From NCBI RefSeq assembly GCF_900069005.2, contig NZ_LN831279.1, positions 2,870,961 to 2,934,960 on the forward strand: 64,000 bases of DNA, in the 5' to 3' direction. Positions 14,282-24,732 of this stretch are shown here, piece after piece; positions within the stretch are counted from its first letter, which is position 1, and every line of letters begins with the position of its first letter. Source of the DNA: Paenibacillus sp. GM2 (GTDB lineage: Bacteria; Bacillota; Bacilli; Paenibacillales; Paenibacillaceae). The translations under genes and the position numbers were made by a program. The notes below the pieces were generated by a model. The model saw only the letters and a list, made by a program, of their open reading frames with translations, did not search any database and was not told where the DNA came from.

Positions 14282-14477
14282 TGCGCTGTATATCCACAGT
14301 TTATTTCTGGCTTTCGAGACTGCTAAGCATGATTAACTCAATCAGAGCAGCCTATACGCTTTAACAAAACACGTCTCGTTCATGGAAAAATCCCGGCTTC
14401 ATAACCCTATTTTTGATAGAAATAACGCTGCCTAAACTCATCCCACATTGAAAAACGGGAAAATACCAAATATAATC

Positions 14478-14509
14478 ATTAATAATTAACATATTTATTA
14501 ATTATATTA
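14478..14509. promoter_or_regulatory. AT-rich operator-like site upstream of the ArsR-like gene
   Basis: The segment contains ATATTTATTAA and flanking ATTAAT repeats and ends 11 bases before the start codon, overlapping the region just upstream of the AGGAGG ribosome-binding site. ATATTTATTAA is also half of the perfect palindrome upstream of the arabinofuranosidase gene (17302-17321), which suggests autoregulation and shared control. Confidence 0.5.
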
Positions 14510-14520
14510 GGAGGCTCGCC

Positions 14521-15423
14521 ATGAAACTGGATCTTACCGAACGATCATTGCCTGTCTATGAAGCGCTGTCCAGCTCTGTTCGTCTGAGGATCATGACGCT
14601 GCTGGTCGAGAAGCCGATGAATATCAAGGAGCTGGCAGAAGCTCTGAATTTAAGCAGCGCGATAATGACGATGCATGTTCGCAAGCTGGAGAATGCTAAC
14701 CTCATCAGCAGTCATATGGCCCCCGGGCGGAGCGGTCTGCAGAAGATATGCACCTTATCCGCTGACGGCATCGAGATTATTTTCCCCAATAAAATGCAGA
14801 ATGAACGTAAAAGCTACCGCACGGAAATTCCGGTGGGCCATTATTCCGATTTCCAGATCGAGCCGACCTGCGGCCTGGCTACGACCGAGCATATGATCGG
14901 CGGCTTCGATGACCCCCGATTCTTCTGGGATCACGAACGGATGAATGCCGGCATCCTCTGGTTCGGGAAAGGCTATGTAGAGTATAAAATTCCTAACTTC
15001 CTGCTGGCAAGCCAAAATCCGGAGGAACTAGTTATTTCGATGGAAATCGCTTCCGAAGCTCCGGAGACGAACAATGACTGGCCATCGGATATTACCTTCA
15101 CCTTGAACGGGGTCAAGCTCGGCTTCTGGACAAGCCCCGGCGATTTCGGCGATCAGCGCGGAAAATACACACCAAAATGGTGGGCGAACCATATCAACCA
15201 GTATGGCCTGCTCAAGCAGCTGCGCATTACGGGAGAAGGCACTTATGTAGATCGTCTGAAGATTTCGGAGATTACGCTAAATGACGTCAACATCCGCGGA
15301 AAGCAATGGACCTTCAGGCTTTCTGTAGAAGAAGATGCCCGTCATATTGGCGGCCTCACGCTGTTTGGCAAAGGCTTCGGCAACTATAACGAGCATCTTA
15401 TATCAGAACTTTATTATACTTGA
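14521..15423 (+). CDS. ArsR-like winged-helix regulator with an unassigned C-terminal domain
   Basis: Residues 1-80 are a winged helix-turn-helix: VRLRIMTLLVEKPMNIKELA, then the recognition region SSAIMTMHVRKLENANLI. The remaining 220 residues are not a domain I can name with confidence. They are rich in aromatic residues and look beta-rich (MIGGFDDPRFFWDHERMNAG, ILWFGKGYVEYKIPNFL, DITFTLNGVKLGFWTSPG), ending with a repeat-like LFGKGFGNYNEHL. I infer a ligand-sensing or carbohydrate-binding module. The gene has an AGGAGG eight bases before its ATG and is convergent with the DUF6171-abfA pair; operator-like motifs suggest that it controls abfA and itself. Confidence 0.78.
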   Translation: MKLDLTERSLPVYEALSSSVRLRIMTLLVEKPMNIKELAEALNLSSAIMTMHVRKLENANLISSHMAPGRSGLQKICTLSADGIEIIFPNKMQNERKSYRTEIPVGHYSDFQIEPTCGLATTEHMIGGFDDPRFFWDHERMNAGILWFGKGYVEYKIPNFLLASQNPEELVISMEIASEAPETNNDWPSDITFTLNGVKLGFWTSPGDFGDQRGKYTPKWWANHINQYGLLKQLRITGEGTYVDRLKISEITLNDVNIRGKQWTFRLSVEEDARHIGGLTLFGKGFGNYNEHLISELYYT

Positions 15424-15477
15424 ATCCCTGCCACCTGGCCTAAACAAAGACATAGCGCTACTTGGGTTATATACCGT

Positions 15478-15741
15478 TCACCACAACGCGCCGCCCGGCA
15501 GCGGACAACTCTTTCGCTTCAGCTTGGCGGCAACAGGAATGATGCAACCGCAAACGGTACAGTTTACCCCATCCAGCAGCTTGGCACAGCCATTGCAAAT
15601 TCGCAGCCGCTCAGCATATACCTCATCATCTACACAATGATCAGAAGTGAACATGGGAGAGGCCAACAGGCGCCGGATGCTCTCCTCCGTCACCTTGTAC
15701 TCCTCCTGACAGCCTTTGCATCCGTTATTTTGCGTGCTCAT
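15478..15741 (-). CDS. Small zinc-ribbon-like protein (DUF6171-like)
   Basis: An 87-residue protein with nine cysteines in pairs: CKGC near the start, then a lone C in SDHC, CNGC near residue 48, CTVCGC near residue 61, and a late C in KRKSCPLPGG. This pattern suggests one or two zinc-binding knuckles. It resembles a family annotated as DUF6171; function unknown. It begins ten bases after the stop of abfA on the same strand, so it is probably the last gene of that transcript, although no functional link to arabinose use is evident. Confidence 0.7.
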   Translation of the reverse strand: MSTQNNGCKGCQEEYKVTEESIRRLLASPMFTSDHCVDDEVYAERLRICNGCAKLLDGVNCTVCGCIIPVAAKLKRKSCPLPGGALW

Positions 15742-15751
15742 CCTGTACCTT

Positions 15752-17263
15752 TTATGCCTTTGCCGCTTGCTGCTTGATCTCCAGCACCGCGACTGACATA
15801 GGCGGCAATTGAACGCTCAGCTTGCTGCCCTCCAGAACAAAGGCATTAAAAGGCTGTGGAACAACCTGATCCGGCTGTTCAAACGTATTGTGAGCATCGA
15901 TCTCAGTAGCGGCTAATATTGTACCGGATACAACGAGCTCCCCGATCCTCTCATCCAGACCGCGCAAATCGATAGTCAGGTCATGGTTATCCGCATGATT
16001 CAGATTACAAAGGCTAATATGAATAATCCCTTCCTGGTCTACGGAAGCCGAAGCCGATACGGCAGGAATATCGCGGCCATTATGACGATAAGCTTCACTC
16101 TCGCAAGTGAATTCGACTCTCTCAGCATCCTGATGCACTTTGAACATATCAAATACATGATAGGTTGGCGTCAAGAGCATTCGCTCGCCTTCCGTTAAAA
16201 TCAACGCTTGCAGCACATTGACCATTTGCGCGATATTCGCCATTCTTACCCGATTATTATGCCGATGAAAAATGTTGAGGGTAACACCGGCAACCAGTGC
16301 ATCGCGGATGGAATTCTGCTGATACAGATACCCCGGCATCGATCCCGGCTCCCTATTGTACCAGGTTCCCCATTCATCAACGATCAGTCCGATACGCTGA
16401 TCTGGATCATATTGATCCATAATCGCACTATGCCGGGTAATCAGCTCATCCATATGCAGAGCTTGCCCCAGCGTTGTGAACCACTCGTCTGTATTGAAGC
16501 CGGTGGCGTCCCCTTTATTTTCCCAGTCCGGACCGAGAATCGTGTAATAATGCAGTGTGATTGAATCCATAAATGAAGATGCCTCGCGCATGAGAACTTC
16601 CATCCAGCGATAATCGTTCCCATTGGGACCACAGGCAATCCGCTGAAGCTTATTATCGCCGTAATTGCGGACATAGGTCTGATACTGGCGATATAGATCC
16701 GCATAATATTCCGGGCGCATATTACCGCCACAGCCCCAGTTCTCGTTGCCAACACCCCAATATTTTACGGTCCACGGCTCCGTCCGTCCGTTCGCTGCAC
16801 GCATGGACGACATTGGAGACTCTCCGCCAAACGTAAGGTACTCTACCCATTCGGACATTTCCCGCACGGTCCCGCTGCCTACATTTCCATTTATGTAAGC
16901 GTCACAGCCAAGCAGCTCACACAACATCATAAACTCGTGAGTCCCGAAATGGTTGTTTTCAACAGCGCCTCCCCATAGCTTGTTAATCATTCGTTTGCGT
17001 GTCTCTCGCGGGCCAATCCCATCCTCCCAATGATAATCATCTGCAAAACAACCACCTGGCCACCGCAACACCGGGATATTGATGCGCTGCAGCGCTTTCA
17101 ATACATCGTTTCTAATCCCCTTGGTATTCGGAATTGGTGAATCCTCGCCCACCCAGATGCCTTCATAGATCCCTCTGCCCAAATGCTCGGAGAAATGTCC
17201 GTAAATCTCTTTGTGGATAAGTCCTTTTCGCATATCTGCATTTAACACAGCACTAGAAGCCAT
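15752..17263 (-). CDS. abfA: Intracellular alpha-L-arabinofuranosidase, GH51
   Basis: Releases terminal arabinofuranose from arabino-oligosaccharides. GH51 (alpha/beta)8 barrel with the acid/base Glu at 174 in [12 protein letters not shown] and the nucleophile Glu at 297 in [30 protein letters not shown] near residue 67 is the signature substrate loop. The C-terminal beta-sandwich ends with [12 protein letters not shown]. There is no signal peptide, so it acts in the cytoplasm on imported oligosaccharides. 503 residues is usual. The start ATG follows a GGGAG. A perfect 20-base AT palindrome 39 bases upstream is the candidate operator of the neighbouring ArsR-like protein. Confidence 0.94.
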
Positions 17264-17281
17264 TGTCTCCCGCCTTTCACT

Positions 17282-17321
17282 TTAATTAATAAAAAAATTA
17301 ATTAATAAATATATTTATTAA
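17282..17321. promoter_or_regulatory. Palindromic operator upstream of abfA
   Basis: TTAATAAATATATTTATTAA at 17302-17321 is a perfect 20-base palindrome. Immediately closer to the gene, TTAATTAATAAA occurs twice (17282 and 17298), 16 bases apart. Half of the palindrome (ATATTTATTAA) recurs upstream of the ArsR-like gene. The position between promoter and start fits a repressor site. Such AT-only palindromes can arise by chance in AT-rich spacers. Confidence 0.55.
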
Positions 17322-17426
17322 CATTATAATAAAGCTCTTACAAGTCCGTCAATGCGCTCCATGCTTCTTACGACTCAAATCCCAACATTTTTTACGGATA
17401 ACGATATTAAACTTATAAATAAACCA

Positions 17427-17467
17427 AAATGAACTTGATAAATGAACATAAATGGAGTAAATTGAAC
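17427..17467 (+). promoter_or_regulatory. kduI promoter with direct-repeat operator
   Basis: A sigma-A-like promoter: TTGATA at 17435-17440, 17-base spacer, TAAATT at 17458-17463. AAATGAAC occurs at 17427-17434 and 17440-17447 on either side of the -35, and AAATTGAAC at 17459-17467 over the -10. AAATGGAGTA (17450-17459) lies in the spacer. Direct repeats over a promoter suit a DeoR-type repressor, here encoded by the second gene of the operon. Confidence 0.5.
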
Positions 17468-24702: not shown

Positions 24703-24732
24703 AAGTGGAGGGCCATGCATGGCCCTCCACTT
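24703..24732 (-). terminator. Terminator of nadE
   Basis: A perfect 30-base palindrome, stem AAGTGGAGGGCCATG, directly after the nadE stop; on the minus strand it is followed by TTTTTTGTGACG. Very strong predicted hairpin. Confidence 0.92.

Follow-up and report, generated by a model that had tools for sequence, protein, structure and literature searches.

A 64,000 bp stretch of the Paenibacillus sp. GM2 genome (contig NZ_LN831279.1, positions 2,870,961 to 2,934,960; the whole stretch is hereafter called the window) contains a regulator gene (14521–15423, + strand) for a 300 amino-acid protein, in which an ArsR-type winged helix is joined to a C-terminal domain predicted to resemble carbohydrate-binding modules (CBMs). 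The gene is convergent with abfA (15752–17263, − strand), which encodes a 503 amino-acid alpha-L-arabinofuranosidase of glycoside hydrolase (GH) family 51. The regulator is quite probably an autoregulated repressor of abfA that is released by a sugar, the exact sugar being left open.

In the proposed mechanism, the regulator would act as a one-component, autoregulated transcriptional repressor, a dimer of which would bind a 26-bp AT-rich inverted repeat by its ArsR-type winged helices. Bound at one site where its own transcript begins, and at a tandem pair where that of abfA begins, the repressor would block RNA polymerase. After entry of fragments of arabinan or arabinoxylan into the cell, a sugar containing arabinose would bind the C-terminal CBM6/35/36-like beta-sandwich, upon which the regulator would leave the DNA and arabinofuranosidase would be made.

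Operators at the regulator and abfA promoters

The palindromic 26-bp profile obtained from 28 abfA upstream regions reads tTTAATTAATATATATATTAATTAAa, with the operator core TTRRTTAAT-W6-ATTAAYYAA, and scored 15 or more at three of the 63,975 window positions, all located at the regulator and abfA promoters. Of these unstranded sites, operator 1 (14481–14506, score 23.3) covers the presumed transcription start of the regulator gene, immediately ahead of its ribosome site. The abfA operators are two tandem copies 16 bp apart, i.e. the abfA-proximal operator 2 (17281–17306, score 25.2), whose 24-bp core (17282–17305) matches TTRRTTAATW6ATTAAYYAA with 0 mismatches, and the abfA-distal operator 3 (17297–17322, score 20.0), which adjoins the −10 box.

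Candidate promoters were assigned by consensus match for the regulator (14448–14476, + strand; TTGAAA at 14448–14453, 17-bp spacer, TATAAT at 14471–14476) and for abfA (17323–17352, − strand; TTGACG at 17352–17347, 18-bp spacer, TATAAT at 17328–17323). All three operators are directly downstream of the candidate −10 boxes and cover the expected start sites, an arrangement typical of a repressor with control over its own gene as well. Autoregulated repression of abfA through the three operators is very likely. The opposite sign of control, with the sugar-bound regulator activating abfA, is suggested by HlyU, an ArsR-fold structural match titled a transcriptional activator, but is very unlikely, as a protein bound downstream of the −10 box, over the start, usually blocks transcription. 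From the same kind of site position, the authors of a study on Caldicellulosiruptor bescii concluded 'repressor' for its ArsR-family regulator (PMC8579813).

The preliminary description of this DNA had proposed a shared AT-rich palindrome linking the regulator and abfA. The perfect 20-base palindrome that it had placed before abfA, TTAATAAATATATTTATTAA, is exact at 17302–17321 within operator 3, and the AT-rich element before the regulator, ATATTTATTAA, is found at 14491–14501 inside operator 1. Sites are thus present at both genes, whereas the repeated unit proved to be 26 bp long and tandem at abfA; the 20-mer was rejected as the operator unit, since relatives keep the 26-bp register, the centre of which is 2 bp away. 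In the 5.85-Mb genome the 20-mer has this sole exact copy, and it occurs at four places with up to 3 mismatches, three of them in this locus. Perfect unspaced 20-bp palindromes number two in the window against a mean of 0.08 in order-1 random windows, and if the base composition is taken from the 120 bp preceding abfA, one such palindrome has a probability of 0.0006. The second one, GAGGGCCATGCATGGCCCTC at 24708–24727, is GC-rich and unrelated to that of abfA. Further targets elsewhere in the own genome were considered and rejected: with up to 3 mismatches, the operator core is present at seven places, four of them at the locus, against five for its reversed control.

Conservation was followed in 30 distinct orthologue loci, defined by a regulator at least 64% identical to that of the window; L137, L139, L141 and L142, each repeating a genome already included, were left out before profile training. 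In 28 of the 30 loci, no more than 751 bp lay between the regulator and a GH51 gene of at least 67% identity, 12 of these pairs being convergent as in the window and 16 divergent. The 56 GH51 genes in relatives comprised 22 beside an orthologous regulator, 3 beside regulators of 53–54% identity (G029, G053, G056; counted neither among the 28 nor among the controls), and 31 controls, whereas the remaining six of the 28 pairs came from loci of a wider contig scan of other genomes. Controls were GH51 genes with no immediately adjoining window-type regulator, although several have some other family member less than 10 kb away and one (G046) adjoins a broken member. An operator scoring 15 or more was present in 27 of the 28 abfA upstream regions beside an orthologous regulator (median 28) and in one of the 31 control upstream regions (median −11), a comparison that is partly circular because the 28 trained the profile. 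Conservation upstream of abfA in relatives that keep the regulator, the lack of which was to refute the proposal of the preliminary description, is thus observed for the operator.

For cross-validation with 120-bp upstream regions, the profile was trained on one gene-order group and the other was scored. When only the 16 divergent pairs served for training, the fifth-best control was exceeded by 11 of the 12 convergent abfA upstream regions and the best control by 9, and the corresponding counts for the convergent regulator upstream regions were 11 and 4 of 12. The best-scoring control belongs to a genome (G041) with a 67% identical regulator on a different contig, and the genomes of the four best controls (G041, G040, G025, G048) carry family members elsewhere, so some of these may be real unlinked targets; many low-scoring controls likewise come from genomes with family members.

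Several results count against this interpretation of the sites. Training on the 12 convergent abfA upstream regions gave a slightly different AT-rich pattern, by which all 16 divergent abfA upstream regions exceeded the fifth-best control and only two the best, whereas for regulator upstream regions the counts were 10 and 0 of 18. Regulator sites were weak in several convergent relatives (L038 6.0, L039 4.3, L041 8.8, L037 10.0), and one orthologue locus from a metagenome assembly (L136) had no site at either gene. Genome-wide, the reversed control of the 20-mer was found at 5 places with up to 3 mismatches, so that the count for the 20-mer is at chance level and only the clustering at the locus is telling. 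The reversed control of the operator core also occurred at 5 places, and matches away from the locus are thus no more than chance would give.

The palindromes are almost purely A/T and located at promoters, as might be expected of promoter elements or A-tracts, or of binding sites for a different protein such as AraR, without any relation to the regulator. AraR in particular is brought to mind by the L-arabinose isomerase gene (araA; PF02610, 262 bits) through which the own genome uses arabinose, and by the AraR site that abfA of C. bescii also has (PMC8579813). This explanation is nevertheless highly improbable, as the operators accompany the adjacent regulator (the 27 of 28 against 1 of 31 given above) and are present at both genes in convergent and divergent order alike. 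The AraR operator, moreover, contains G and C.

The operator score dropped with distance from the window regulator, and most members below 50% identity reached at most about 10. Two broken family members were encountered, one with two stops (G046:C11:2923-3291) adjoining an operator-less GH51 gene, and the other in several pieces (G010:C2:1988004-1988728, in L134).

Winged helix and C-terminal domain of the regulator

The N-terminal residues 1–79 (14521–14757, + strand) form the DNA-binding part, in agreement with the standard winged helix described previously. The best Pfam match of the regulator was ArsR HTH_5 at residues 19–64 (E 3e-9, 37 bits against a cut-off of 22), and its Pfam matches were to helix-turn-helix families only; HTH_5 was matched in all 45 scanned family members (E up to 0.01). 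In fold comparison (VIA) against the PDB, the winged helix gave Z 13.1 to PH1932 (2cwe) and 12.4 to CzrA (4ggg), and PDB sequence searches with the regulator gave winged helices only among the matches listed (22, and the best 60 of 118). Neither a GntR-type DNA-binding domain nor a LacI-type sensor was among the Pfam and NCBIfam matches.

With E up to 1, no Pfam or NCBIfam match extended past residue 112, and none of the 16 Pfam matches was a CBM profile, in line with the earlier statement that a C-terminal domain of about 220 residues could not be assigned. Residues 94–300 (14800–15420, + strand; 207 residues) were modelled alone with AlphaFold2 from 81 sequences, because the VIA rows for the whole model were mostly winged helices; even there, five chains aligned on residues 97–300 (2cdp, 2cdo, 4qaw, 3wnp, 9h6h; Z 10.0–10.5). 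The model had a predicted local distance difference test (pLDDT) value of 93.3 and a predicted template modelling (pTM) score of 0.90. The structure prediction and fold comparison that had been suggested for this part point to a beta-sandwich, a candidate sugar sensor. The first Foldseek match in the PDB was CBM36 with xylotriose (1ux7, E 1.5e-4). Of the first 24 VIA rows (Z 9.3–10.5), 11 were chains with CBM in the title, and the other 13 were glycosidases or cyclodextran-forming enzymes (CITases), aligned at an accessory non-catalytic domain. The matches included CBM6 with neoagarohexaose (2cdp; Z 10.5, root-mean-square deviation 2.8 over 123 residues), Xyn30D (Z 10.1; its CBM35 was also listed alone), a GH98 endoxylanase domain (Z 9.9), CBM35 (2w47, Z 9.7) and CBM36 (1w0n, Z 9.5). 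Overall, the rows named CBM6, CBM35 or CBM36 had Z 8.8–10.5 and deviations of 2.7–3.1 over 116–124 residues, and the domain is accordingly predicted to be a CBM6/35/36-like jelly-roll beta-sandwich.

Among the residues invariant in the 81 sequences were W147, Y155, W203, P206–D208, W220 and Q227; structural position apart, such residues are, broadly, of the type used in sugar sites. On the other side of the balance, the rows named CBM6/35/36 were only 6–15% identical to the domain, the second Foldseek match was a Cry toxin (E 2.4e-4), and Cry toxins as well as Eph receptor ligand-binding domains share the sandwich superfold (VIA Z 8.5–9.2), so the CBM-like fold is suggestive and no proof of sugar binding. 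The possibility that the domain occurs as a free module was examined and rejected, as its full-length matches in 59 relatives lie in frames of 271–382 amino acids, which is the size of the whole regulator, the remaining matches being fragments. One distantly related genome from the phylum contained a partial match (G272:C151:15426-15950) inside a 752 amino-acid frame, perhaps another protein context.

Metal sensing is the best-known role of ArsR proteins; the metal ligands of ArsR/SmtB proteins are conserved cysteine and histidine sets in alpha3 or alpha5. The regulator could control abfA through the operators in response to an effector other than a sugar bound by the C-terminal domain, through metal or redox sensing, or the domain could serve oligomerisation only. 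Besides the ArsR fold itself, this explanation may draw on C117, the sole invariant cysteine of both family alignments (A1, 45 sequences; A2, 81 sequences), which sits in the C-terminal domain, and on H52 and C77, which are invariant and nearly invariant, respectively, in A2 only; a CBM-like sandwich alone, moreover, shows no function. A non-sugar effector is nonetheless unlikely. C77 is the single cysteine within residues 1–79 of the window regulator, no invariant cysteine/histidine set was present in the winged helix of the aligned members of A1 and A2, the regulator reached 41 bits with the metalloregulator model NF033788 (NCBIfam), below the cut-off of 55, and its neighbours in the family are mostly glycosidases and sugar-type transporters, for which reasons metal sensing was set aside.

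A sugar-sensing version of ArsR, as had been surmised, is upheld as far as sequence and model go, by the CBM6/35/36-like fold together with glycosidase and sugar-transporter neighbours. Binding of a sugar by the C-terminal domain is reasonably likely, and the combination of autoregulated abfA repression and sugar binding, with an arabinose-containing ligand, is somewhat favoured.

Gene neighbourhoods of the locus and of the family

Identification of abfA was based on the Pfam domain Alpha-L-AF_C (E 5.5e-53); its score with the NCBIfam ArfA model was 251 bits, under the cut-off of 625. Further genes of the locus are those for a KDPG/KHG aldolase, for kduI (NCBIfam 445 bits, cut-off 250) and for a DeoR-type regulator, which would suit a pectin-catabolism setting, into which an enzyme acting on arabinan side chains would fit. 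The L-arabinose isomerase gene of the own genome also speaks for the proposed mechanism. Upstream of kduI, TGAAC was read by eye as a direct repeat in three copies (17430, 17443, 17463; span 17430–17467), a candidate operator of the DeoR-type regulator, whose gene immediately follows kduI. Between the regulator gene and abfA, 10 bp past the abfA stop, an 87 amino-acid, cysteine-rich open reading frame (ORF) was found at 15478–15741 (− strand), with a DUF6171 match of 31.7 bits against a cut-off of 27.

Among 59 genomes, i.e. the own one and others of its genus and order, 46 contained family members, many of them several. The tree of 105 family proteins showed several clades, with good support for 70 of the 102 inner branches and with a long-branch warning. 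A GH gene or a sugar-type ABC gene was located within three ORFs of 100 of the 105 members (immediate neighbour in 95), GH genes accounting for 86 and sugar-type ABC genes for 45, all as raw counts. By cluster, the neighbours were GH51 (40), GH2 (29), three GH43 clusters (18, 9 and 4) and GH27 (9), and five members were near a cluster taken by eye for GH127. Cluster names refer to one Pfam-scanned representative each, those of the second permease and GH127 clusters having been given by eye, and L050 was scored as GH-less although tblastn detects abfA there. Misfits were L056 and, by similarity, L143 and L147, which adjoin an addB-like gene (by eye). In L114, L115, L124 and L125, two family members of the same genome occur in one short stretch with GH43/GH2-type genes nearby, which suggests diverged sugar specificities.

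Beyond these genomes, at least 592 relatives were found, and the best 80 were examined as named loci. A GH51 match was present in 43 of these 80, within 1 kb in 38, and GH51-linked loci included Caldicoprobacter, Ruminiclostridium, Lapidilactobacillus and a Spirochaetes bin. Plasmid records matching the family numbered 259 (Rhizobium 149, Sinorhizobium 67, Deinococcus 6, Enterococcus 6). In three of nine plasmid regions (Rhizobium/Sinorhizobium) the regulator directly precedes an annotated arabinofuranosidase and an ABC transporter, in three it is beside other sugar transporters or GH43, and in one the annotation was too poor to judge. In Sinorhizobium meliloti pSymB, regulator and arabinofuranosidase flank the ABC operon on either side, and on an Enterococcus faecalis plasmid (L285) the family member is near an IS1216 copy, with an upstream partial GH51 match ending at an insertion sequence. 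Two rhizobial arabinofuranosidases compared with the window abfA were only 27% identical to it. On the basis of the rhizobial regulators preceding an arabinofuranosidase, the link between the two genes crosses phyla. The domain was present in 15 of 299 genomes sampled evenly from the phylum, own included, and the family is therefore patchy.

Relation to known regulators and meaning

Control of abfA by an ArsR-family protein is not wholly new, as ArbA (also ArbR) was predicted earlier as the abfA regulator of C. bescii; the arbA and abfA genes there are divergent, and three sites were predicted (PMC8579813). The window regulator shares with ArbA the ArsR-type DNA-binding class, the gene position beside abfA, predicted abfA-promoter sites and the inferred role of repressor, whereas its gene is convergent with abfA. 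The two are likely homologous, to judge from a comparison by description only. Neither a CBM-like domain nor members beyond Caldicellulosiruptor are mentioned for ArbA in the text consulted (PMC8579813). ArsR genes are also annotated in a Geobacillus arabinan cluster (PMC4428132) and in the ara cluster of Lactobacillus rossiae (PMC4855831). In the literature searched, which covered few subscription papers, neither a binding or ligand test of such a regulator nor a CBM-like ArsR sensor was found. Relative to that literature, four things are new: the sensor fold, the 26-bp operator together with its controls, its tandem arrangement at abfA, and how widely the family occurs.

The ArsR/SmtB proteins CzrA, SmtB and NolR have the winged-helix fold in common with the window regulator (VIA Z about 10–12) but are only about 100–120 amino acids long and lack the extra C-terminal sandwich of the 300 amino-acid protein, which in turn is without their metal-site cysteine pattern and stands in a sugar-gene neighbourhood. 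CBM6, CBM35 and CBM36 share the predicted fold of residues 94–300, whereas the domain is longer (207 against about 120–140 residues), without sequence match to them, presumably cytoplasmic, and fused to a DNA-binding domain. AraR, a GntR-type arabinose repressor (PMC8579813), has the same proposed role of repressing arabinose- and arabinan-use genes, with different DNA-binding and sensor families.

In RsgI-type anti-sigma factors of cellulolytic clostridia, which are membrane-bound, an extracellular CBM senses plant polysaccharides, whereas the module of the window regulator would sense inside the cell and is fused directly to the DNA-binding domain. On balance, the CBM6/35/36-like module fused to an ArsR winged helix may well be a hitherto undescribed class of intracellular carbohydrate sensor, which would control plant-glycan use (arabinofuranosides first) in Bacillota, Alphaproteobacteria, Deinococcota and probably Spirochaetota. 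The paralogues within a single genome would then each have become specialised for GH51, GH43, GH2 or GH27 targets.

Family members are often annotated merely as 'ArsR family transcriptional regulator'. Should a carbohydrate module indeed be the sensor, a testable role would follow for hundreds of these genes, i.e. the relatives and plasmid records counted above, and the clade of the window would gain a readable operator. Regulons for hemicellulose and pectin use could then be traced in soil, gut and rhizosphere bacteria, and the regulators may offer sugar-inducible parts for engineering.

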